NCBI GenBank assembly: GCA_029961105.1
Contig: JASBVO010000005.1
Span: 100,406 to 164,405 of the forward strand
Direction of reading: 5' to 3'
Origin: Micrococcus sp.
Lineage (GTDB): Bacteria; Actinomycetota; Actinomycetes; Actinomycetales; Micrococcaceae
Length of the DNA: 64,000 bases
Shown: positions 10,167 to 64,000 of the stretch, in pieces
Layout: the number at the start of each line of letters is the position of its first letter
Numbering within the stretch: the stretch's first letter is position 1
The notes under the pieces: model-generated
Told to the model about the DNA's origin: nothing
Databases searched by the model: none
The model's input: the letters and a program-made list of their open reading frames with translations, nothing else
Program-made: the position numbers and the translations under genes

Positions 10167-12008
10167 TCAGTCGGGCAGTCCGGCCGGGTGGGTGGTGCCC
10201 TCGGCCACGAGGGTGGCGACGACGTCGGCCGCCGTGGCCACCTCCACCTCCCGGGCCTCGCCGGTCGCGCGGTCCTTGACCTCGACGACGCCGTTGGCGA
10301 GCCCGCGGCCGACCACCACGGAGGTGGGGATGCCGATCAGTTCCACGTCGGAGAACTTCACGCCGGCCGAGACCTTCTTCCGGTCGTCGTAGAGCACGGT
10401 CAGCCCACGCGCCTCGAGGCCGGCGACGAGCTCCTCGGCGGCGGCGAAGAGTTCCTCGCCCTTGCCGGTGGCCACCACGTGCACGTCCACGGGGGCGACG
10501 GCTCGCGGCCACACCAGGCCCTTCTCGTCGTGGTTCGACTCGGCCAGGGCGGCGATCGCGCGGGTGACCCCGATGCCGTAGGAGCCCATGGTCACGACGA
10601 CCTGCTTGCCGTTCTCGTCGAGCACCTTCAGGTCCAGCGCCTCGGCGTAGCGGCGGCCGAGCTGGAAGATGTGGCCCATCTCGATGCCGCGGCGGGTCCG
10701 GAGGGGCCCGGAGCCGTCCGGGGCCGGATCGCCGTCCCGCACCGCGGTGGCCTCGACGATGCCGTCCCAGGTGAAGTCGCGCCCGGCCACGAGGCCGAAG
10801 ACGTGCTGCTGGGGCGCGTTGGCGCCGGTGATCCAGGCGGTACCGGGGGCGATCCGCGGGTCCACGAAGAAGGGCACGGCGGACTCGGCCTCCCCGCCCA
10901 GGAACTGGGTGGCCGACCCGTCCTCCGCCACGCGGGCCGGGCCGATGTAGCCCTTGACGAAGGCCGGCAGCTGGGCCAGGTCCTGCTCGGTGGCCGCCTC
11001 GAGGGTCGGTTCCCCGGTGACCCCCAGCAGTTCCCCGACGCCGGACTCGAGCCGCTTGAGGTCGACGTCCCGGTCCCCCGGAACGGCGACGACGAAGGGC
11101 CGGCGCTGCTCGCCGTCCAGCACGGCCGTGACGACGACGCACTTCAGGGTGTCCGCGGCGGTCCACTCGCCCTGCTCGCGCGGGGCGAGCCGGTTGGACA
11201 CGTCCACCAGGGCCGCGATCGTGGTCGACTCGGGGGTGTCCTTCACCTCGGCCGCCGGCGCGCCCGAGGCGTCCACCGCGGCCGGGGGCACCGTGGTGAC
11301 CGCCTCCACGTTGGCGCGGTAGCCGCCGTCGGACTCCACGAAGGTGTCCTCGCCGATCGGCGAGGGGTGCAGGAACTCCTCGGAGGCGGAGCCGCCCATC
11401 GCCCCGGCCGTGGCGCGCACGGGCACGACCTCCAGGCCCAGCCGGGCGAAGATGCGCAGGTAGGCGGCCCGGTGGTCCTGGTACGCGCGCTCCAGGCCGG
11501 CGTCGTCCACGGTGAAGGAGTAGGAGTCCTTCATGACGAACTCGCGTACCCGCAGCAGGCCGGCCCGCGGCCGGGCCTCGTCCCGGTACTTGGTCTGGAT
11601 CTGGTAGAGGTACGCCGGCAGGTCCTTGTAGGAGGAGTAGTGGTCCTTCACCAGGAGAGTGAACATCTCCTCATGCGTGGGCGCGAGCAGGAAGTCGGCG
11701 CCCTTGCGGTCCTTGACGCGGAAGATGCCGTCGCCGTAGTCCTCCCAGCGCCCGGACACCTCGTAGGGCTCCTTCGGCAGCAGGGCCGGGAACTGGACCT
11801 CCTGGCCGCCGATCGCGTCCATCTCCTCGCGCACGATCTGCTCGACCCGGTTCTTCACCCGCAGTCCCAGCGGCAGCCAGGTGTAGGCGCCCGGGCCGGC
11901 GCGGCGAATGTACCCGGCGCGGACGAGCAGCCGGTGGCTGGCCACCTCGGCGTCGGCCGGGTCGTCACGCAGGGTGCGGAGGAACAGGGTGGACATGCGC
12001 AGGGGCAC
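10167..12008 (-). CDS. proS: proline--tRNA ligase
   Basis: 613 aa; [34 protein letters not shown]...[14 protein letters not shown]. Confidence 0.95.
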
Positions 12009-33028: not shown

Positions 33029-33634
33029 ATGTCCCCCCGGTTGCCCCGCGCCGATCACCTGGTCCACCGTCCCCGTCCCGGCAGGATGGCCGTGATCGCC
33101 ACCGTGCTGGCGGGCCTGGCCGTGCCCGGTCCGCCCGTGCCGGTGGCCGGCCCGGAAGGCGATTCCGTCGGCTGGTCGGCGCCGACCTCGACCACCGGGC
33201 AGTCGGCCGTGCTCCGTCCCTTCGACCAGCCGGCGGCCCCGTGGTCCGCCGGGCACCGTGGGGTCGACTGGGCCAGCCCGGACGGGGACGTGTTCGCCCC
33301 GGCCGCGGGCAGCATCCGGTTCGCCGGGCCGGTGGCGGGCCGTTCCGTGGTCACCGTGGCCCACCCGGACGGGATGCTGTCCAGCCTCGAGCCGGTGGAG
33401 CTGGCGCCGGGGCTGGCCGTCGGGGACCGCGTGGCGGCCGGCGAACTGATCGGCTCCGTGCAGGAGGGGGTGGATCACTGCCCGGTCGCCTGCGTGCACT
33501 GGGGCGCGCGCATCCCGCAGGGGTGGACCGTGCAGGGCGGCACGTGGGACCGCTACGTCGACCCGCTGGTCCTGCTGGGCCTGTCAGGCCCGTCGGTGCT
33601 GTGGCCGCTCACGGGCAGACCGCCCGGGCACTAG
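33029..33634 (+). CDS. M23-family peptidase-like exported protein
   Basis: [27 protein letters not shown]; adjacent to rpsB; start codon 33023 or 33029 uncertain. Confidence 0.8.
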
Positions 33635-36242: not shown

Positions 36243-36276
36243 GTAGGGCGTGCGGGACTTGAACCCGCGACCCAGG
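36243..36276 (-). other. putative att site copy 1 (tRNA 3' T-arm/acceptor fragment)
   Basis: gtagggcgtgcgggacttgaacccgcgacccagg; minus strand gives T-arm GCGGG-TTCAAGT-CCCGC plus ACGCCCT acceptor strand; no D-arm adjoining. Confidence 0.75.
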
Positions 36277-36410
36277 AATTACAGGGTCCTGATTTCGACT
36301 GGTAACGGTCATGGCTTGTTGCGCGCGTCATTGGTTGGGAGTAGCGCGGCGCCCCCTCCCCCACCATTGGCCGTTATTGATCGTTTTCGGTTGTTTCCGG
36401 TGGGTAATCG

Positions 36411-36584
36411 GTGGGAGCGCAGCAGACTTTAGTACCCCCCGCCGGACCGGCTGATGCCCACGATGATCAGGCCAGCGAATTGCACCACTCCATGCGGTTC
36501 GGCAACTGGGGCGGTCTCACCCCCAACGAGCGCAGACTAGGAGCTCACCTCCGGGCACGCCTCGCCGAAAGAGTCCCCGCATGA
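36411..36584 (+). CDS. small ORF in mini-element between att copies
   Basis: GTG start, translation VGAQQTLVPPAG...LHHSMRFGNWGGLTPNERRLGAHLRARLAERVPA; stop overlaps next ATG (ATGA). Confidence 0.4.
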   Translation: MGAQQTLVPPAGPADAHDDQASELHHSMRFGNWGGLTPNERRLGAHLRARLAERVPA

Positions 36585-36910
36585 GCACCGATCCTCGCGC
36601 CACCCTGGCTGAAATGAAGTTCCGAGCGGCTGTCGCCGCGACGTTCGGCCGCTATGCCGGAAAGCCGACACTCCGCGGCTACGACAGGTTCCTCCTGCAC
36701 CAGTCACTGCGCACCGACGCCCCCCACGCCTACGCCGCCCTCGAAGCCGTGCTGGACCTGCACCAGCCCCACCGCAAAGCGGGCGCGGACGGCACTCGCG
36801 ACTTCACCATCTGCCGAGAGTGCCAACACATGGAAGACGGGCGGCCCTCGGACGTGTACCCCTGCCCCACGATCCGCGCCATCACCGAGCACCTCGGAGA
36901 CGACCAGTGA
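36581..36910 (+). CDS. hypothetical mobile-element protein
   Basis: 109 aa; FTICRECQHMEDGRPSDVYPCPTIRAI has a Cys pair typical of small actinophage proteins. Confidence 0.65.
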   Translation: MSTDPRATLAEMKFRAAVAATFGRYAGKPTLRGYDRFLLHQSLRTDAPHAYAALEAVLDLHQPHRKAGADGTRDFTICRECQHMEDGRPSDVYPCPTIRAITEHLGDDQ

Positions 36911-36962
36911 GGAAGACCGCTGGCGCCACCGCCTTGCTCGTCGTGGGCGGCACGGGTTCTAC

Positions 36963-36996
36963 GTAGGGCGTGCGGGACTTGAACCCGCGACCCAGG
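36963..36996 (-). other. putative att site copy 2 (tRNA 3' fragment)
   Basis: Identical 34 bp to 36243-36276, 720 bp downstream; also lacks a D-arm. Confidence 0.75.
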
Positions 36997-37166
36997 GATT
37001 CTAGCGTCCACATTCTCTGGACGGTCACACGCTGCCACTGATGGCCGCACATTCCCGCTCGGACCTGCGCCGATGCTGGGATCCGCCGCCGGCCGGCCGC
37101 CGGCCCCCCGTCATTCCGGACCCCGGATCTTGGATCGTTTCCGGGGGGTAAACGGGGGAAATAGAC

Positions 37167-37215
37167 GTCTAAATAAAGTAGACATGCACGCCCAGACCGG
37201 CTAAACTATTAGACA
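37167..37215 (+). promoter_or_regulatory. promoter/operator cassette copy 1
   Basis: GTCTA-N7-TAGACA(-35, 37179)-17 bp-TAAACT(-10, 37202)-N2-TAGACA(37210). Confidence 0.75.
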
Positions 37216-37273
37216 GAAGGACAGCGAAGCAGCTAGGAACCCCACCGCCCGGAAGGGCAGAAAGGAGGCCACC

Positions 37274-37519
37274 ATGGCCACCACCATCCAGCTCCCCGCG
37301 CTCCGCAAGGAGTTGACCGAGGCCGGCTTCACTGTCCTGCGCTCCGGCCAGTACCGGGACGAGGATCCGCTGGCCACCCACGTCTACCGGGACCACGTGA
37401 CCGGTGGCGCGGAAGTCGTCGTCGGATCCACCGAGGGCCGCCGGCAGGCTCTCGCGTTCCTGCGGGGCCGCCACAGCGCCCGCCGCGACCCGCTGGGACT
37501 GGGGATCCGCGTCTCTTGA
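37274..37519 (+). CDS. small prophage protein
   Basis: 81 aa; AAGGAGG RBS-like sequence upstream. Confidence 0.75.
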   Translation: MATTIQLPALRKELTEAGFTVLRSGQYRDEDPLATHVYRDHVTGGAEVVVGSTEGRRQALAFLRGRHSARRDPLGLGIRVS

Positions 37520-37524
37520 CCCCT

Positions 37525-37551
37525 CCGGCCCCGGGGCACCCCCGGGGCCGG
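37525..37551. repeat. intergenic inverted repeat (12-bp arms, 3-nt loop)
   Basis: CCGGCCCCGGGG-cac-CCCCGGGGCCGG. Confidence 0.8.
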
Positions 37552-37580
37552 CATCACCACCACGGAAGGAATCACCCGCC

Positions 37581-37874
37581 ATGCAGAACACTCCCGAAAC
37601 CCTCGAAATCGCCCGCCAGAACGATCTGTCCACGGAGCTGCTGGACGCCATCGACCCGCTGAACAACTGCCCCGGCTTCCGCCTGTGGGCCGTGACGCTC
37701 GGGGGTAACCGCTACCTGATGGCCGGCGACAGCGCCAGCACCGTCGAGACGCGGATCTACTTCCGCACGCACCGGAAGCTGACCGAGGAAGAGTCCATCG
37801 AGCTGCTGGGAGACAACCCGGACGTGGAGGAATGGGACCGCCAGCAGGCCGCGCTCCAGAACCTCACCCGCTGA
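37581..37874 (+). CDS. small prophage protein
   Basis: MQNTPETLEIARQNDLSTELL...; preceded by ggaaggaatcacccgcc. Confidence 0.75.
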   Translation: MQNTPETLEIARQNDLSTELLDAIDPLNNCPGFRLWAVTLGGNRYLMAGDSASTVETRIYFRTHRKLTEEESIELLGDNPDVEEWDRQQAALQNLTR

Positions 37875-37880
37875 CCACCA

Positions 37881-37907
37881 GCCGGCCCCGGGACGCTCGG
37901 GGCCGGC
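37881..37907. repeat. intergenic inverted repeat
   Basis: GCCGGCCCCG...CGGGGCCGGC. Confidence 0.8.
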
Positions 37908-37937
37908 ACCACTCCCCCAGGAAGGAACCGCCCACCA

Positions 37938-38098
37938 TGAAAGTCCGCATCTCCCTGACCGTGGAAGTCGATCCCGACGCGTGGCGCATGAACTACGGCG
38001 ACATGAGCGCCGCCGAGATCCGCCGCGACGTCCAGAGCGACGTCCAGAACTACCTCTACACGCACCCCAGCGAAGCGATCACCCCCACCGACGACTGA
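37938..38098 (+). CDS. small prophage protein
   Basis: MKVRISLTVEVDPDAWRMNYGDMSAAEIRRDVQSDVQNYLYTHP; preceded by aggaaggaaccgcccacc. Confidence 0.75.
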
Positions 38099-38103
38099 CC
38101 ACC

Positions 38104-38132
38104 GCCGGCCCCCGGGAATCTCGGGGGCCGGC
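38104..38132. repeat. intergenic inverted repeat
   Basis: GCCGGCCCCCG-ggaatct-CGGGGGCCGGC. Confidence 0.8.
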
Positions 38133-38153
38133 CCGACCCGGAAGGAACCGACC

Positions 38154-38429
38154 ATGACCCCCTCGACCATGGCCCGCTGCATCACCCGCGCCGCCCATGT
38201 CTACCACTGGGACGATGTGCGCGAGCTGGCAGACGCCGCAGCCGCAGCCGGCCACCTCACGCGCTCGGGGCACGCCCTGGTCCGCGAGCTGGCAGACGTA
38301 GCCGAACGCGCCGGACGCGCCGGCCGGCACTACGCCAGCGGCATCGCTGACGTGCTGGCCCGCTGCGCCGCTCCGCCCCCGCCGGCCCCCGTCGCCCGAC
38401 CCTATGTGGACGTGCCGCTGCCGCTCTGA
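38154..38429 (+). CDS. small prophage protein
   Basis: 91 aa; preceded by ggaaggaaccgacc. Confidence 0.7.
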   Translation: MTPSTMARCITRAAHVYHWDDVRELADAAAAAGHLTRSGHALVRELADVAERAGRAGRHYASGIADVLARCAAPPPPAPVARPYVDVPLPL

Positions 38430-38456
38430 TCCTGACCGTGGACCCGCGCCGCAATC

Positions 38457-38505
38457 GTCTAGAGGAAGTAGACGATCCGGCTAAAACAAGGTAGAATCTT
38501 AGACA
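38457..38505 (+). promoter_or_regulatory. promoter/operator cassette copy 2
   Basis: GTCTA-N7-TAGACG(38469)-17 bp-TAGAAT(38492)-N2-TAGACA(38500). Confidence 0.8.
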
Positions 38506-38529
38506 GAGAGCGAGAGAGAGGAACCCACC

Positions 38530-38889
38530 ATGAAGGCCCAGAACATCAAGGCCGGCCAGACGTTCTACAGCGAAGACGGTTTCGAGCTGCACGAGAACAC
38601 CGCCGCCCAGGACGCCACCACGGACGGCACGTTCGTCACCATCGTCTGCACGGACGGCGAGTTCTACGCCGACCACGACACCGAGCTGGAGCTAGTCCAG
38701 CCGCAGCCGGAGGACACCGCCGCGACCACCAGCGCGCAAGAGTTCATCGCCAAGGCGTACGAAGACGCACGCGCCACCCTGCACGCCGCATGGACGGCCG
38801 GCTACGCCGCCGGCGTCCGCGACGAAGCCCGCGACCTCGAAGGCACCAGCGCGGCCGCCGTGAGCCCCTACCGGAAGGTGACGCTGTGA
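38530..38889 (+). CDS. small prophage protein
   Basis: 119 aa; preceded by gagaggaacccacc. Confidence 0.75.
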   Translation: MKAQNIKAGQTFYSEDGFELHENTAAQDATTDGTFVTIVCTDGEFYADHDTELELVQPQPEDTAATTSAQEFIAKAYEDARATLHAAWTAGYAAGVRDEARDLEGTSAAAVSPYRKVTL

Positions 38890-39218
38890 CCAGCCCGCAC
38901 ACCATCGCCGCCGCGATCCTGCAGGAACCGCACAGCCCCGACGAGCTGGCCCGCGTGGCCTACCTGCTCATGGACAGCGCCCGCCGGGACGCTCACCTCA
39001 CCGTGGAGCACACCGCCCGGACCACCATCGACCCGGCCGCCAACGCTGCCGCTGCATCCGACGCCGCCAAGCTGGACGTGGCCTTCCACGCGCTGCACGC
39101 GGCCGCCCTGCCGATGCCCTACACGCCGCTCCCCATCCAGCCCCGGACCCCCGAGGCCCGGGAAACGCTCCAGAACATCCGAGACGCCCAGAAGGCCCGC
39201 CGAGAGGGGAAGGCATGA
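38886..39218 (+). CDS. small prophage protein
   Basis: GTG start overlapping the upstream stop; VTSPHTIAAAILQEPHSPDELARVAYLLMDS. Confidence 0.7.
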   Translation: MTSPHTIAAAILQEPHSPDELARVAYLLMDSARRDAHLTVEHTARTTIDPAANAAAASDAAKLDVAFHALHAAALPMPYTPLPIQPRTPEARETLQNIRDAQKARREGKA

Positions 39219-39472
39219 CCGACGCGCCCCGCGTGACGATCGAAAAGGACTTGGGGGACCGCCGGACCGTCCGCGTCGAAATCCCTCAGGGTAAGCAATC
39301 CCGGTTCGTGTACCTCACCCCCGAGCAGGCCCAGGCCCTCCACCGGGAACTCGGGGCCCATGTCACTCACGCACGCCCGGACCGTCCAAAGATCACAGAC
39401 GACCCGACCATTCCCGACGAATCCCGCGCCCTTGCCGTACTGGCAACCGGTGACGACCAGCTGGAGGACTGA
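39215..39472 (+). CDS. small prophage protein
   Basis: 85 aa; ATGA overlap with upstream gene. Confidence 0.7.
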   Translation: MTDAPRVTIEKDLGDRRTVRVEIPQGKQSRFVYLTPEQAQALHRELGAHVTHARPDRPKITDDPTIPDESRALAVLATGDDQLED

Positions 39473-39475
39473 CCC

Positions 39476-39922
39476 ATGACCGAGAACCCCATCCCCGGGA
39501 ACGACAGCGCCGCCACGGCCTACTTTGCCGCCGAACAGGTCCCCTCCCGATGGGCCCCCGAAACCGACGCCGCCGTCGCCGTCGCCTACGCCACCCTGGC
39601 ACTAGCCGAGGAACAGCGCACGGCCAACCTGATCGCCCTGGAGCAGTTGAAGGCCACCGCCACCGGCGCGGCCGGCCGCCGAGGCTCCGCCGAGCGAATC
39701 GGGGCCCGGATGCAAGGGCCGGCCGAGCCCGCGCCGGCCCCGGACTACTGCGCCAGCAACCTCGTGGCGATCCGGTTCGAGACACTGCGCCTCGACGTGG
39801 AGAAGATGCGCCGCGATTCCGAGCCGAACGGACCGGCCCGCGCCGCGCTCGGGGACGTGCTGGCCCTCATCGACCGCCACGCCGCCGTGCCGGCCCCGAG
39901 CACTCGGGGGGCCGACCAGTGA
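39476..39922 (+). CDS. small prophage protein
   Basis: 148 aa; co-directional with the module. Confidence 0.65.
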   Translation: MTENPIPGNDSAATAYFAAEQVPSRWAPETDAAVAVAYATLALAEEQRTANLIALEQLKATATGAAGRRGSAERIGARMQGPAEPAPAPDYCASNLVAIRFETLRLDVEKMRRDSEPNGPARAALGDVLALIDRHAAVPAPSTRGADQ

Positions 39923-40239
39923 CCGGCGAGCCCCTGAACCCCCAGACCGCCGAAGTCTGGATCGGGCCCGACTACCGGAAGCCCGCACCAGCCCCGCGCC
40001 CCGTGTCCATCTTCCAGTCGTTCGAGGACACTTTCCGGCACGTCGGCCGGGTCATGCGGGACACCATCGAGCAAGTCTGGAAAGCCGTCCGCAGCGCGTG
40101 GCGATTCATCCCGGACGAGGTCCGCGAGCAGGCCGCGATCGACGCCGGCCGCCGCTACTGGACCGACCAGCGCGGCCGCACCCGGAGAACTCGGGGGGCA
40201 CGCCCGCTCCTGCACAACGGAAGGAAGCCCAGGAAGTGA
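39919..40239 (+). CDS. small prophage protein
   Basis: GTGA overlap; VTGEPLNPQTAEVWIGPDYRKP... Confidence 0.65.
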   Translation: MTGEPLNPQTAEVWIGPDYRKPAPAPRPVSIFQSFEDTFRHVGRVMRDTIEQVWKAVRSAWRFIPDEVREQAAIDAGRRYWTDQRGRTRRTRGARPLLHNGRKPRK

Positions 40240-40418
40240 CCGAGCAGACCACCACCACCCGCGCCGAGGACCGCCGCGCCGGCCTAACACTCGGGGAGTT
40301 GTTCCAGTTCACCCAGGCCGCGCTCAACGCCGGCACCGACCCCCGCCAGCCCGTGAAGGCCAGCGTTGGATTCTTCGCCCAGATCACCGCCATTACCACC
40401 GACAGGAGGCAGCCGTGA
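40236..40418 (+). CDS. small prophage protein
   Basis: GTGA overlap; VTEQTTTTRAEDRRAGLTLGELFQFTQAALNAG. Confidence 0.6.
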   Translation: MTEQTTTTRAEDRRAGLTLGELFQFTQAALNAGTDPRQPVKASVGFFAQITAITTDRRQP

Positions 40419-40675
40419 CCGTCATGGACGGACACCCCGAGGCCGAGGCCCGCAAGGCCCAGAACCGCGCCGCCCGGGACAAGGGAGAGCCCATCATCTG
40501 CACCACATGTGGCGACCGGCTGGACTGGATCCCCAACGACGCCGAACGCGTGGACCTGTACGACTTCCAGCCCGCCCACGTCTACCACTGCGCCCGCTGC
40601 AGCAACTACTGGGGACGCGACGGCCTGCCCGTGCTCACGCCCGAGGAATGGAAGCAATGGGCGGCCCAACGGTGA
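40415..40675 (+). CDS. zinc-ribbon-like small protein
   Basis: CTTCGDRL...CARCSNYWG: two CxxC knuckles. Confidence 0.7.
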   Translation: MTVMDGHPEAEARKAQNRAARDKGEPIICTTCGDRLDWIPNDAERVDLYDFQPAHVYHCARCSNYWGRDGLPVLTPEEWKQWAAQR

Positions 40676-40794
40676 CCGAGTGCCGAGCCGAAATCCCCAT
40701 CCCGGAGCTGGCCGTGGCCGTCCCGTGCTGGCACCTGCCGCCGTGCCCGGTCCATGACTGGACCGAGCCGGACAGGGACCGGGATCCCGTCTAG
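40672..40794 (+). CDS. very small prophage protein
   Basis: GTG start overlapping upstream stop; 40 aa. Confidence 0.45.
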   Translation: MTECRAEIPIPELAVAVPCWHLPPCPVHDWTEPDRDRDPV

Positions 40795-40837
40795 AGAAAG
40801 TAGACAAGCCGGCTAAAAGAGAGTAAGATTATAGACA
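40789..40837 (+). promoter_or_regulatory. promoter/operator cassette copy 3
   Basis: GTCTA-N7-TAGACA(40801)-17 bp-TAAGAT(40824)-N2-TAGACA(40832). Confidence 0.8.
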
Positions 40838-40872
40838 GAAAGAGGGACACACCACCACGGAAGGAACCCACC

Positions 40873-41178
40873 ATGACCACCACCGCCACCCCCGCCAAGA
40901 TCGTCCTGACCGCCGCCGTCGCCAAGCTCTCCACCCTGCAGATGTTCGAGGCCCTGGAAGACCTGGACGGCCGCGCCGGCGAGTGGCTGGTGGGACTCAC
41001 CCCCGAGGAAGTCATCGTCCGGGACGAGCTGATTGACGCCATCGAGAAGCGCCACCGGCTTCAGACGGCCACGCTGGACGTGCTCTCCGAGCTGGAGACG
41101 TCCGAGCCCTTCGGTAACATCGCCTACCCCCGAGTGCTCCGGCTGGCCATGGGGCGCACCGGACAGACCATCGCCTAG
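40873..41178 (+). CDS. small prophage protein
   Basis: 101 aa; preceded by ggaaggaacccacc. Confidence 0.75.
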   Translation: MTTTATPAKIVLTAAVAKLSTLQMFEALEDLDGRAGEWLVGLTPEEVIVRDELIDAIEKRHRLQTATLDVLSELETSEPFGNIAYPRVLRLAMGRTGQTIA

Positions 41179-41190
41179 TTAGGACCAGCC

Positions 41191-41352
41191 ATGACCAACG
41201 CATACCGGACCGGGATCCTCGCCGTAGTGCTCGGGGCCGCCGTCGTCTTCACGGAGCTGCCGCCGGCATGGACCCTGGCCGGCGGAATCGCAGCCCTGGC
41301 CATCGGAGCCACCGCGCTCGTCCTGGCCCTACGGCACCCCCCGGCAGCCTGA
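41191..41352 (+). CDS. small membrane protein
   Basis: MTNAYRTGILAVVLGAAVVFTELPPAWTLAGGIAALAIGATALVLALRHPPAA; two TM-like segments. Confidence 0.6.
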   Translation: MTNAYRTGILAVVLGAAVVFTELPPAWTLAGGIAALAIGATALVLALRHPPAA

Positions 41353-41437
41353 ACACTTGCCGGCCCCTCAGCCCTGACAGCTCGGGGGGCCGGCCTGATA
41401 ACCTGACCTGACTTCGCATGAAAGAGAGCACCACCAG

Positions 41438-42118
41438 ATGAACCGCCGCGCCGCCATCACCCTCACCACCGCCGCCGTCCTCACCGGCACCGCCGCCGCC
41501 GCCGTCGTCATCCCCGCCGTGGCCGCCGACCCCGCCGGCCCCACGCCGGCCATGACCGCCACCGCCCAGGCCGTCCGCAGCACCGCCGCCGCGCTTAGCC
41601 CGGAGCAGGCCGCCGTCCTCACCGACCCGCAGGTGACCACCCTCACCGACCCCGCCGCAGCCAAGGCAGCCGCCCTGGAAGCCGGCCGGCCGGAAGAGGC
41701 ATGGGACAAGAACTGCGTGGCATGGAAGCTGCCCGCCGCCGACACCGACGCCCAGGCATGGGCCAACGACGTGGCCGGCACGTGGCTGGACGCCCACGAG
41801 GCCGGCTGCCCGGACGCCATCGAGTGGCCGCACTACTACGCCGAGACGTTCACCGCCGGCGAGCCCGGCGAAATCGTCATCACGCTGGAAGCCGGAGCCA
41901 TCGAAGACTCGTTCGTGTCCCGGTTCAGCGACAACCACCAGGGCCTACAAGCGTTCGCCGTGCTGTTCCGTGACGCCACCGAGGCCGAGCACCCCGACCT
42001 CGAAAACGTCACGGTGACCGTGGAAGGCACCGACCACGCGTGGACCCTGACCCCGGATCTCCGCGAGTCCGTGCCCTACGATGCCGAGGACGTCTCCATC
42101 GCTCACCCCATGTTCTAG
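41438..42118 (+). CDS. secreted prophage protein
   Basis: MNRRAAITLTTAAVLTGTAAAAVVIPAVAADP signal peptide; 226 aa. Confidence 0.75.
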   Translation: MNRRAAITLTTAAVLTGTAAAAVVIPAVAADPAGPTPAMTATAQAVRSTAAALSPEQAAVLTDPQVTTLTDPAAAKAAALEAGRPEEAWDKNCVAWKLPAADTDAQAWANDVAGTWLDAHEAGCPDAIEWPHYYAETFTAGEPGEIVITLEAGAIEDSFVSRFSDNHQGLQAFAVLFRDATEAEHPDLENVTVTVEGTDHAWTLTPDLRESVPYDAEDVSIAHPMF

Positions 42119-42127
42119 AAACGCCGA

Positions 42128-42169
42128 AAGGGCCCCCACCCGTGGAGAGATCCACAGGTGGGGGCCCTT
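42128..42169. terminator. bidirectional terminator between convergent modules
   Basis: AAGGGCCCCCACC...GGTGGGGGCCCTT between ORFs ending at 42118(+) and 42199(-). Confidence 0.75.
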
Positions 42170-42198
42170 CTCATGTCAGCGCCGCAGCGCCACCGGTG

Positions 42199-42627
42199 CT
42201 AGTACGAGTACCACCCGTACCGGTTCAGCCCGAGCTGAAGGCACCGGGTCAACTCCTTGACGTACGGCTCCATGTAACCTTCCCGGGAGCCCCACGGCGT
42301 GTAGTACATGCCCACCCCCGCCTGCGCGTACAGAGTCCAGAGCGTCGGATCGTCGTAACGGTTCTGACTCACGCCCCAGTTGATGTGCAGGAAGTCCAGG
42401 AACGACTGGCAGGACATGTCGCCAAACCAGCCGTCGATCAGACCGTGATACCGGTTCCCGGCCGCCATCTGCCGCTGCACGGCCTTCAGGGACTCCTTCC
42501 CGAATACCCCGTCGATCAGGGCCCAGCTTGGGTAGTGCCCGTAGTGCTGCAGGTGCCGCTGGTACGTCCGCGCCACCGGCAGATCCCAGATGCCGTCCAG
42601 CGTGAAGTTGGGTTTAGTCGTTGGCAT
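42199..42627 (-). CDS. peptidoglycan-binding-like standalone protein in lysis cassette
   Basis: IDGVFGKESLKAVQRQMAAGNRYHGLIDGWFGDMSCQSFLDFLH resembles the endolysin C-terminus. Confidence 0.65.
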   Translation of the reverse strand: MPTTKPNFTLDGIWDLPVARTYQRHLQHYGHYPSWALIDGVFGKESLKAVQRQMAAGNRYHGLIDGWFGDMSCQSFLDFLHINWGVSQNRYDDPTLWTLYAQAGVGMYYTPWGSREGYMEPYVKELTRCLQLGLNRYGWYSY

Positions 42628-50635: not shown

Positions 50636-53163
50636 GCCGTAGCACCTCCCAGATCAATCCGACCCCTGGCCCGGTTGCCACGGTTGGCCCGGTTCCAGAG
50701 ATCCTGCGACAGTTGCTTCACCCGGTTGTCCGAGTCCATCCGGACGTCCGAGAGCTGCACCAGCGGCCCCTGCACGACCATCCCGCCCCCGCCGGACGGC
50801 TCGGGGGCCCCGCCAGTAGCGAGCATCCGATCCAGCACCGACAGCGGCAGCACCGCCTCCGACTCCGCGCCCTCACCAATCACGGCCAGCGTCGGCTTAG
50901 TGACGACGCCGCCAGTGGCCAGCATGGGGATCTTCGGGGCCGACCAGCCCTTGCCACCGACCCCGGGAACCCATCCCGGCACCGTGAAGCTGAACGATCC
51001 CACAGTGTTGTTCCACGCCCGAGCAACGCCGTTGAACGCCGAGATGAACGGCCCCCGGATGGCATTGGCGATTCCGCCGAACGTGCTCCGGAACCATCCG
51101 ACCGCGCCCGAGAACACGCCAGTGATGCCCCGCCACGCCGACGAGGCCAGCGACTTGATCCCGTTCCACCCGGACGACCAGACGCCCCGGATGGCACCGA
51201 GCACGGACGAGATGATCGACCGCACCCCGGAGATGGCATTCCGGATCGTGCCCGTGATTCCGGACCAGATCGACCGCGCCACGGACTGGATCCCGGACCA
51301 GACCGACCGCCAGACGGACGAGATGGCCGAGAGCACCGACTGGATCACCGAGCGCGCCCCGGTGATTCCGTTCCGGATCACGCCCGTGATCGCTGACCAG
51401 ATCGACGCCGCCACCGACCGCACCGCGTTCCACACCGACGACCAGGCCGACGAGATGGCCGAGAGCACGGACTGGATCACGGAGCGCACCCCGTTGATCG
51501 CGCCGCCGATCAGCGTCCGGATCCCGGACCAGACCGCCGAGGCAGTGGCCCGGATCTGCGTCCACTTCGTCAGCCACCATGCGCCGATAGCCGTCAGCAC
51601 GGACTGGATCACGGAGCGCACCCCGTTGATCGCGCCGCCGATCAGCGTAGTGATCCCGGACCAGACGGCCGCCGCTGTGGCTTGGATCCGCGTCCACGTG
51701 ACCGTCCACCACGCCGAGATGGCCGTCAGCACGGACTGGATGAACGCTCCGGCCGCCGCGATGGCCGACTGGATGAACCCCCAGACCGCCGCCCAGACGT
51801 CCTGAAAGAACGTCGTTTGCGTGGCCACCCAGATAATGGCCGCCACCAGCGCACCGATGGCCACCACGATCCAGGTAATAGGGTTGGCCAGCAGCGCCGC
51901 ATTGGCCGCCCAGATCTGCGCCACCCAGCCGATCATGGCCGGCACCAGCACGACGGCGATGGCCGTGGCCAGAGCGCCGATGACCCAGTGGTTTTCCGAG
52001 ATGAAGCCGGCCAGCCCTTGGATGGCCGGCATGGCCACCGTCAGGAACGACCCGAAGGCCGCACTAACCGCCCGCTGGAGCTGATCCAGCGCCACGCCCG
52101 GCCCGGACTGCATCTGTGCCGTGAACTCCGCCGCCGCGCCGTTGACGTCACCCATGCCGCCCGGAACACCGCTCAGTGAGTCCAGAAACGCCGGGATCGT
52201 GTCGATACCCATGTCCTCCAGCGGGGCCCCGAACAGCGCAATGGCGGCCGCCGCCTGCTCCCCGGGATCCTCGATCTTCTGAAGGGCCCCGACGACCTGC
52301 GACATGGCATCCTGTGCCGCCGGTCCGCCCTTGGAGATCTGGGACGCCATCTTCTCCGCGTTGAGCCCCAGCCCCTCCATGGCCTCCTGCGCGCCCGTGT
52401 CGTCCAGGTTGCCGGCCCGGACTTGAAACTCCTTCAGGCTGTCGCCCATCTTATCCATGCCGATGGCCCCGTTTTCCGAGGCCGCCACGATCAGCCCGAG
52501 CGCCTGCGGCCCGTCGATCCCGAGGCCGGCGAAGTGCTTGGAATACTCATCCATGACCGGCAGAATCTCCCCGCGCATGGCCGCCGGTACGTTCTGCATC
52601 GAGGCCGTGATGAGATCCATGGCCGCTTCCGCATCCGGAGCCAGCCCGTTGTTCATCATCACACCGGCCGTGGAAACGGCCTCCGTGACGTCCACGCCGA
52701 AGCCGTCCGCCAGGGCCATCGCCTGCCCGGTGATCGCCTCCAGGTCCGCCTCCGAAGCGTTCCGCATCCCGGACATGGACGACATGACCGCATCCACGGC
52801 CGTCGTCACGTCCCCCATACCCTCGCCCATGCCGGCCGAGTACAGGTTGCCGGCCACCGCGCCGGCCCGCTCCGCCTCCGGCCCCGTCAGGTCCAGCGTC
52901 GCGTTGAGCTTGTTGAGCGCGTCGCCCTTCTCGATCTGGCCACTGAAGGCCGACATGAACGCAGCCCCGAGCCCGGCAGCGGCCGCCGCCGTAACGATGC
53001 CCTTCCAGCCGGACATAAAGCCCTTGCCGGACTCCTTGCCGGCCTTGTCGCCGGCCTTGTCCGCGCCACCCACGAGCTGATCCGTGATCGTCTTCTCGGA
53101 CCCCTCCATGGAGGGAATGAGATGGACGTATGCCTGCGCAATATCCACGCCGTTACCTGCCAT
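50632..53163 (-). CDS. tail tape measure protein
   Basis: 843 aa, helical/repetitive, MAGNGVDIAQAYVHLIPSMEGSEKTITDQL. Confidence 0.9.
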   Translation of the reverse strand: MAGNGVDIAQAYVHLIPSMEGSEKTITDQLVGGADKAGDKAGKESGKGFMSGWKGIVTAAAAAGLGAAFMSAFSGQIEKGDALNKLNATLDLTGPEAERAGAVAGNLYSAGMGEGMGDVTTAVDAVMSSMSGMRNASEADLEAITGQAMALADGFGVDVTEAVSTAGVMMNNGLAPDAEAAMDLITASMQNVPAAMRGEILPVMDEYSKHFAGLGIDGPQALGLIVAASENGAIGMDKMGDSLKEFQVRAGNLDDTGAQEAMEGLGLNAEKMASQISKGGPAAQDAMSQVVGALQKIEDPGEQAAAAIALFGAPLEDMGIDTIPAFLDSLSGVPGGMGDVNGAAAEFTAQMQSGPGVALDQLQRAVSAAFGSFLTVAMPAIQGLAGFISENHWVIGALATAIAVVLVPAMIGWVAQIWAANAALLANPITWIVVAIGALVAAIIWVATQTTFFQDVWAAVWGFIQSAIAAAGAFIQSVLTAISAWWTVTWTRIQATAAAVWSGITTLIGGAINGVRSVIQSVLTAIGAWWLTKWTQIRATASAVWSGIRTLIGGAINGVRSVIQSVLSAISSAWSSVWNAVRSVAASIWSAITGVIRNGITGARSVIQSVLSAISSVWRSVWSGIQSVARSIWSGITGTIRNAISGVRSIISSVLGAIRGVWSSGWNGIKSLASSAWRGITGVFSGAVGWFRSTFGGIANAIRGPFISAFNGVARAWNNTVGSFSFTVPGWVPGVGGKGWSAPKIPMLATGGVVTKPTLAVIGEGAESEAVLPLSVLDRMLATGGAPEPSGGGGMVVQGPLVQLSDVRMDSDNRVKQLSQDLWNRANRGNRARGRIDLGGATA

Positions 53164-62799: not shown

Positions 62800-63006
62800 T
62801 CAGTCGTCGTCGTCCAGCTCCGCCCGCATAAGTCGGGGCAGTGGCGCACCCGGCATCACGATGGCCCGGTAACCCTCGCGCCGTTGTTGCTCCGGATCCA
62901 CCGGCCGGCCGTCGTCGTACCGCTTCACCCGGTCCCGCGTCAGGTACAGCACCGGCACCGCGATGACCAGGAACAGCAGCAGGGATCCGACCGCGTGCCA
63001 GATCAC
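62800..63006 (-). CDS. small single-TM protein
   Basis: GTG start overlapping upstream TGA; VIWHAVGSLLLFLVIAVPVLYLTRDRVKRYDDG. Confidence 0.6.
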   Translation of the reverse strand: MIWHAVGSLLLFLVIAVPVLYLTRDRVKRYDDGRPVDPEQQRREGYRAIVMPGAPLPRLMRAELDDDD

Positions 63007-63356
63007 GGCCGGCCCCCGCAGTACAGATGGACGGATCCGCCGGTAACCGCCAGACATGGCTCCAGCTCGTCCCGCAGCTCGTCCCACAGCTTGAACGGAG
63101 CCACCACCAGATCCACGGACAGCCCGCGACCGCCCCGCGACCGCACCGACCGGAACAGCACCCGGCCGCCGCCGACCGGCTGCAGCTCTTGGGCCCCGTT
63201 GGTCCGCCGAACCCTCTCCAGCAGCTCGGGGGGCAGGCCGGCCGCCACGTAGTCCAGCGCCGCCGTGGCATCCGCGTAGGTATCGCAGACCACCAGCACG
63301 TCCTCACCGGTCACGGCCGCCCGCAGGATCTCGTCCCGCGTCTCTTCTGCCAGCAT
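63003..63356 (-). CDS. truncated terminase-like miniprotein
   Basis: 117 aa; RRTNGAQELQPVGGGRVLFRSVRSRGGRGLSVDLVV aligns by eye with terminase VHTNGKKSLELETGERYKVQAASRRGGRGLSGDLVLLDEL. Confidence 0.7.
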   Translation of the reverse strand: MLAEETRDEILRAAVTGEDVLVVCDTYADATAALDYVAAGLPPELLERVRRTNGAQELQPVGGGRVLFRSVRSRGGRGLSVDLVVAPFKLWDELRDELEPCLAVTGGSVHLYCGGRP

Positions 63357-63539
63357 GGCCGGCCCCCTTGTCTAGTTGGTATGGACAACAGCTCTTCACG
63401 CGCACGCGCGCACGCGACCCCCGGCCCGACGTCCGGGGGGAGAGAGTCCCTTGCCGGCGCTCGGGTTTCCCGCCCCCACCCGTAGGGATTGAGACGCCCC
63501 TACCGGGGAGAGCTGGCACAGCCGCGAGCTGTGAGCCGG

Positions 63540-63839: not shown

Positions 63840-63880
63840 GCGTTGCCCCCGTCCCGTGTCCGAGGGGGCCGGCCCCTGCG

Positions 63881-63984
63881 CCGAGGGGCACCCGCCCCGC
63901 TCCCGATGGGGCACCCCCGCCCGTGTGCCGAGGGGCACCCCCCGCTAACGCCAGGGCCCCCCGCCTACGCACCGAGGGGCACCC
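63881..63984. repeat. iterated ~22-25 bp-spaced CCGAGGGGCACCC repeats
   Basis: Copies starting 63881, 63903 (variant), 63928, 63951 (degenerate), 63972. Confidence 0.65.
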
Positions 63985-64000
63985 CCCCCCCGCGTGGAAG

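Follow-up and report, generated by a model that had tools for sequence, protein, structure and literature searches.

Mycobacteriophage BPs offers the nearest worked-out parallel to the regulatory system described here, a set of putative operators in a prophage of Micrococcus sp. (contig JASBVO010000005.1, positions 100,406 to 164,405; "the window" hereafter means this whole stretch of 64,000 nucleotides). The BPs repressor gp33 is encoded near the integrase gene, and palindromic operators are found at five regulatory regions spread over the genome, including promoters other than PR (PMC4557955). The likeness lies in palindromic operators at several promoters and in composite sites that pair a strong part with a weaker one, whereas the sequences differ: in BPs the palindrome is CGACATATGTCG and the second half, which is variable, lies at 5-8 bp, and the prophage has GTCTA-N7-TAGAC with a single half-site 31 bp further on. 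Our analysis indicates that GTCTA-N7-TAGAC is very probably the operator that one family of small XRE-type immunity repressors uses in cluster AS phages, and that it would silence three promoters of an orphan module of small genes in the lysogen.

Other well-described systems share single traits with this locus. The stoperators of cluster A mycobacteriophages (L5, TipsytheTRex) are asymmetric, are bound by monomers and stop elongation at 18-30 places (PMC9283540), most of them not at promoters. They have in common with the present sites that one repressor serves several dispersed positions in an actinophage, but they were rejected as a model, because the sites here are palindromic, four in number and located at promoters. 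The divergent repressor/Cro control region seen in relatives of the prophage, with operators overlapping promoters, resembles OL and OR of lambda CI/Cro; the present system differs from lambda in sequence, in combining one palindrome with half-sites where lambda has three full sites, and in the extra single operators at distant operons.

Judged by its head and tail genes, the prophage belongs with the Galaxy-like (cluster AS) temperate Arthrobacter phages. Its head genes have about 70% DNA identity to those of Galaxy, Abidatro and TaylorSipht, with alignments that cover as much as 88% of 7.9 kb, and its terminase is 73-75% identical to those of Galaxy-like phages and 84% identical to that of G436, a prophage in IMG/VR. 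Several of these phages are placed in the published subclusters AS1 and AS3 (PMC9670964, PMC11845989). Galaxy (gp34), Abidatro and TaylorSipht (gp35) are of the same phage type and carry the same palindrome, with operators at promoters. Galaxy has two reverse-strand genes after its lysis genes, whereas the prophage has a module of 15 open reading frames (ORFs) with three operators there, and the promoter geometry differs. The Galaxy genome paper names the repressor and integrase genes and gives no operator; the published attP lies outside the repressor gene, and integration-dependent immunity is not found in full (PMC5513430). BPs uses such immunity, which is marked by an attP inside the repressor gene. 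Neither the Galaxy paper, nor the AS phage announcements consulted, nor the open-licence literature searched for repressor operators of Arthrobacter phages describes this operator. It is apparently an undescribed operator sequence in a known phage group, with a mechanism of a well-known kind.

Three cassettes and a palindrome shared with relatives

The pattern GTCTA-N7-TAGAC-N18-TANNNT-N2-TAGACA has exactly three matches in the window, at 37167-37215, 38457-38505 and 40789-40837, which bears out the three identically spaced cassettes reported in the first-pass annotation. The full 49-bp pattern did not occur in 100 dinucleotide shuffles (0 expected), and a chance origin was rejected on that ground. 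The three exact copies of the palindrome in the window are all the exact copies in the 3.31-Mb assembly, and the -35/-10 pair with its trailing half-site also occurs three times assembly-wide, even at one mismatch.

All elements of the cassettes lie on the forward strand. In copy 1, the exact palindrome of operator 1 (GTCTAAATAAAGTAGAC, 37167-37183), a motif also present in relatives, overlaps promoter 1 (37179-37207; -35 TAGACA, 17-bp spacer, -10 TAAACT), and a downstream TAGAC half-site (37210-37214) lies near the predicted transcription start. Copy 2 consists of the exact palindrome GTCTAGAGGAAGTAGAC (operator 2, 38457-38473), promoter 2 (38469-38497; TAGACG, 17-bp spacer, TAGAAT) and a half-site at 38500-38504, and copy 3 of the exact palindrome GTCTAGAGAAAGTAGAC (operator 3, 40789-40805), promoter 3 (40801-40829; TAGACA, 17-bp spacer, TAAGAT) and a half-site at 40832-40836. 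In all three copies, the palindrome covers the -35, the right arm is followed 18 nt later by the start of the -10, and the distance from the right arm to the downstream TAGAC is 31 bp, i.e., about three helical turns. Reading these elements as sigma70-type promoters with a 17-bp spacer is supported by a promoter scan of the 5.3-kb module (36900-42200), in which they were the only sigma70-like sites (0.3 expected); their -35/-10 hexamers match the consensus at 9 of 12 positions. The copies are 63-78% identical to the reference copy over 60 bp, and the identity is concentrated in the palindrome, the hexamers and the trailing half-site. The further palindrome noted in copy 1 is indeed present (TAGACGTCTA, 37162-37171) and contains an extra TAGAC half-site on the forward strand (37162-37166) that abuts operator 1. 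A segment described as shared, CCGGCTAAA, occurs in each copy but not in a common register: in copies 2 and 3 it directly follows the right arm, whereas in copy 1 it is displaced downstream by about 10 bp and overlaps the -10.

The proteins of the ORFs starting at 37274, 38530 and 40873 had no match in the phage and IMG/VR collections, and a search for one of them in 398 genomes from the same family returned the prophage's own genome only; conservation was therefore tested through the structural genes and the repressor. A scan over prophage, host and relatives, as proposed at the outset, found the palindrome kept in relatives but the full cassette nowhere else; among 99 related genomes the full pattern occurred only in that of the prophage. 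The first impression that the motif is private to this prophage was dropped once a search without the fixed -10 and the trailing half-site matched relatives. Eleven scanned relatives have 5-9 sites each at no more than one mismatch, compared with 0-1 for the reversed control, and each genome has 3-6 exact copies of the 17-bp palindrome, nearly always in intergenic DNA just upstream of a start codon. Its 7-bp spacer is strict (44 copies in the 11 relatives, whereas no other spacer of 0-20 bp occurs more than twice), and many phages keep the palindrome although the flanking sequences are unrelated.

Each of the 12 relatives examined has two exact copies between the divergently transcribed genes for the repressor and a Cro-like helix-turn-helix (HTH) protein, while others precede a gene of about 75 amino acids (aa) and one of about 242 aa, the latter annotated as an endonuclease in Galaxy. 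With -10 elements assigned by eye, the palindrome of the relatives follows the -10 at the Cro promoter or covers a likely -10 (TATAAA inside GTCTATAAAACGTAGAC), and elsewhere lies 7-9 bp before the -10 (TATAAT or TAGAAT) or on the -35. The relative G444 also has the arrangement of -10, N2 and TAGAC, but its palindrome is nearer by about one turn.

The repressor family beside these sites comprises small XRE-type proteins of about 120 aa, which are HTH_31-like and, by profile, weakly similar to transcriptional repressors in PHROGs; in Galaxy, the repressor gene adjoins that of the integrase. The helix region LSKAKIGQLA is nearly invariant across the relatives, as would be expected with a constant operator. 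The palindrome is present in 12 of 12 genomes with the repressor (3-6 exact copies each) and in none of 13 comparators without it, ten of which share structural genes and three a module gene, some being fragments. A search with the repressor only gave 26 IMG/VR loci and one locus of Nocardioides pini, about half of them on contigs already present in the first set, and an exact palindrome lies no more than 300 bp upstream of the repressor gene in 24 of these 27, the N. pini locus among them. The nearest solved repressor, 8bny, was reached by profile (E 5e-4), gave no match with a single sequence and was not used.

The N. pini locus (L203; NZ_JAPPUX010000003.1, about 179650-186009) encodes a repressor 48% identical to the G436 protein, and the three exact palindromes of this 4.5-Mb genome are all within about 8 kb of it. 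Such a repressor with GTCTA-N7-TAGAC nearby suggests that the operator system extends beyond Arthrobacter phages.

Proposed repression and the rival explanations

We propose that a repressor dimer would bind each palindrome in the lysogen. Since the right arm forms the -35 (TAGACA) and the predicted transcription start is covered by another TAGAC half-site, three helical turns further on, the bound repressor would keep RNA polymerase off the three module promoters. Close to the start, the extra half-site could provide a contact that is in phase, cooperative or additional, and the late operon would probably be weakly repressed through the one-mismatch site at 63370. Loss of the repressor upon induction, or its absence in a newly infected cell, would turn on the three transcripts at the same time. 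The sites, their overlap with promoters, their conservation and their co-occurrence with the repressor family are observed; from these we infer that the repressor binds and represses, what the third half-site does, and which family the prophage's own repressor belongs to. The suggestion that a phage immunity repressor binds the shared operator draws its support from the palindromes between repressor and Cro-like genes, from the co-occurrence with the repressor family and from the promoter overlap, because the relatives carry the palindrome beside the repressor gene, as predicted. More tentatively, the composite cassette, with the palindrome on the -35 and the half-site three turns downstream over the start, may be a distinct architecture that has spread to three promoters and gives the orphan module its own repressor threshold, apart from the Cro and early-operon operators of other geometry; we consider this possible but somewhat doubtful.

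Several points weigh against assigning the sites to an immunity repressor. The prophage's own repressor gene is absent from the assembly, in which the repressor profile gave only a weak HTH match elsewhere. The relatives share descent, and consequently the 12 of 12 and 0 of 13 genomes are not independent events, although this contrast is still strong. Two of the loci with the repressor, L187 and L188, have only one-mismatch sites near it, and L201 has none there, its sole exact copy being elsewhere in the locus. No match to the complete cassette, including the trailing TAGAC and a -10 placed 18 nt past the right arm, was found in IMG/VR or in the GTDB representative genomes. Finally, a Cro-like protein could bind the same site. 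If the sites were bound mainly by such a protein or by another phage HTH protein, they would be switches of lytic timing rather than lysogenic silencers, and the Cro-like gene does adjoin the repressor gene in the relatives examined, with the intergenic operators common to both. Cro and CI of the lambda type share operators, so binding by Cro would not be exclusive, and the Cro-like proteins look more varied in the helix region that the repressors keep nearly invariant. We regard this explanation as unlikely.

The first-pass annotation left it undecided whether a repressor or an activator controls the three transcripts, and the comparison with relatives favors the repressor. A phage activator that contacts polymerase at the -35 and turns the three operons on would suit both the overlap of the palindrome with the -35, a usual place for a class II activator, and hexamers that reach only 9/12 to the consensus. 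An activator needs a fixed position, which a blocking repressor does not, and the position of the palindrome relative to the -10 varies among the relatives while the promoter overlap is constant; this fits a polymerase-blocking repressor and argues against an activator, as does the repressor type of the regulator gene adjoining the sites there. Activation is consequently very improbable. It is hardly credible that recombination merely copied one promoter to three places in recent times and that the palindrome is devoid of regulatory meaning: their similarity over 60 bp means that they may share an origin, but it is concentrated in the functional elements described above, and the palindrome with its strict spacer is kept in unrelated flanks across many phages. 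Control by the immunity repressor thus remains the reading that we favor.

The small-gene module, the late operon and the prophage boundary

About 15 small rightward genes occupy 37.1-42.1 kb of the prophage, and the leftward lysis, tail and head genes extend from 42.2 kb to the end of the window. Operon 1 (37274-38429, forward strand) contains four ORFs with no known relatives (37274-37519, 37581-37874, 37937-38098 and 38154-38429). Operon 2 (38530-40794, forward strand) has eight small ORFs; that at 40236-40418 is a member of PHROG 9864, which occurs in Arthrobacter and Propionibacterium phages, and that at 40415-40675 has zinc-ribbon-like cysteines. Operon 3 (40873-42118, forward strand) consists of the ORFs 40873-41178, 41191-41352, which is membrane-like, and 41438-42118, whose start resembles a signal peptide. 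For most small genes of the module, Pfam and PHROGs gave no match above noise. In the relative G436, a module of small genes is found at the corresponding position and in the same orientation, with a homologue of 40236-40418 at 57% identity. Adjoining this homologue, G436 carries an exact operator at 33074, the syntenic counterpart of operator 3, with similar gene types downstream, and a one-mismatch site at 37097 precedes an earlier gene.

The first three small genes are each followed, 6-7 nt past the stop codon, by a G+C-rich hairpin (37525-37551, 37881-37907 and 38104-38132) and then by a similar ribosome-binding region, GGAAGGAA. The hairpins have no T-run and are perhaps stabilizers of mRNA or attenuators; one of like sequence lies upstream of a module gene in G436.

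The site at 63370-63386 also belongs to the operator set. This operator 4 reads GTCCATACCAACTAGAC on the reverse strand, with one mismatch, and lies just upstream of the terminase/structural operon, the first gene of which is at 63003-63356. Degenerate sites occur near the same place of the late operon in relatives (G436 at 11017, G442 at 66 and G446 at 66); in others they are further off.

The prophage is flanked on the left by host genes that we take, from their translations, to be rpsB, tsf, pyrH and frr (left of 36.2 kb). A direct repeat resembling the 3' end of a tRNA (36243-36280 and 36963-37000, copies 720 bp apart) marks the putative integration boundary; as ARAGORN found no tRNA genes within the 64-kb window, this attachment-site assignment is drawn from the direct repeat only. 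Between the two copies lies a phage-like ORF (36581-36910, PHROG 23623), and the whole probably represents tandem attachment sites with a remnant of an older or satellite element. The right arm, with the repressor, integrase and attR, is unseen because the contig stops at the window edge, and it was not found in the rest of the assembly when sought through integrases, the attachment-site core and the repressor profile. Between an HNH gene and the contig end, three repeat copies of the GAGGGGCACCC type with 44-47 bp spacing (63867-63987) are probably near cos, and the assembly breaks there. Four to five tandem repeats of 132 nt (51175-51741) are probably within the tape-measure gene. Another contig of the same genome carries a gene for single-stranded DNA-binding protein (SSB; L031, 13512-13877) with 83-84% identity to the beginning of the SSB of Galaxy-like phages, which suggests that these phages took it from a host of this kind.

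Meaning for cluster AS phages

Our analysis provides a concrete operator sequence for the repressor family of a well-sampled group of Arthrobacter phages. With the operator sequence known, the repressor regulon of each phage and homoimmunity between phages would become predictable from sequence. The orphan module of about 15 small genes is thereby marked as putatively repressor-controlled, and its genes are for that reason probably lytic rather than expressed in lysogeny.

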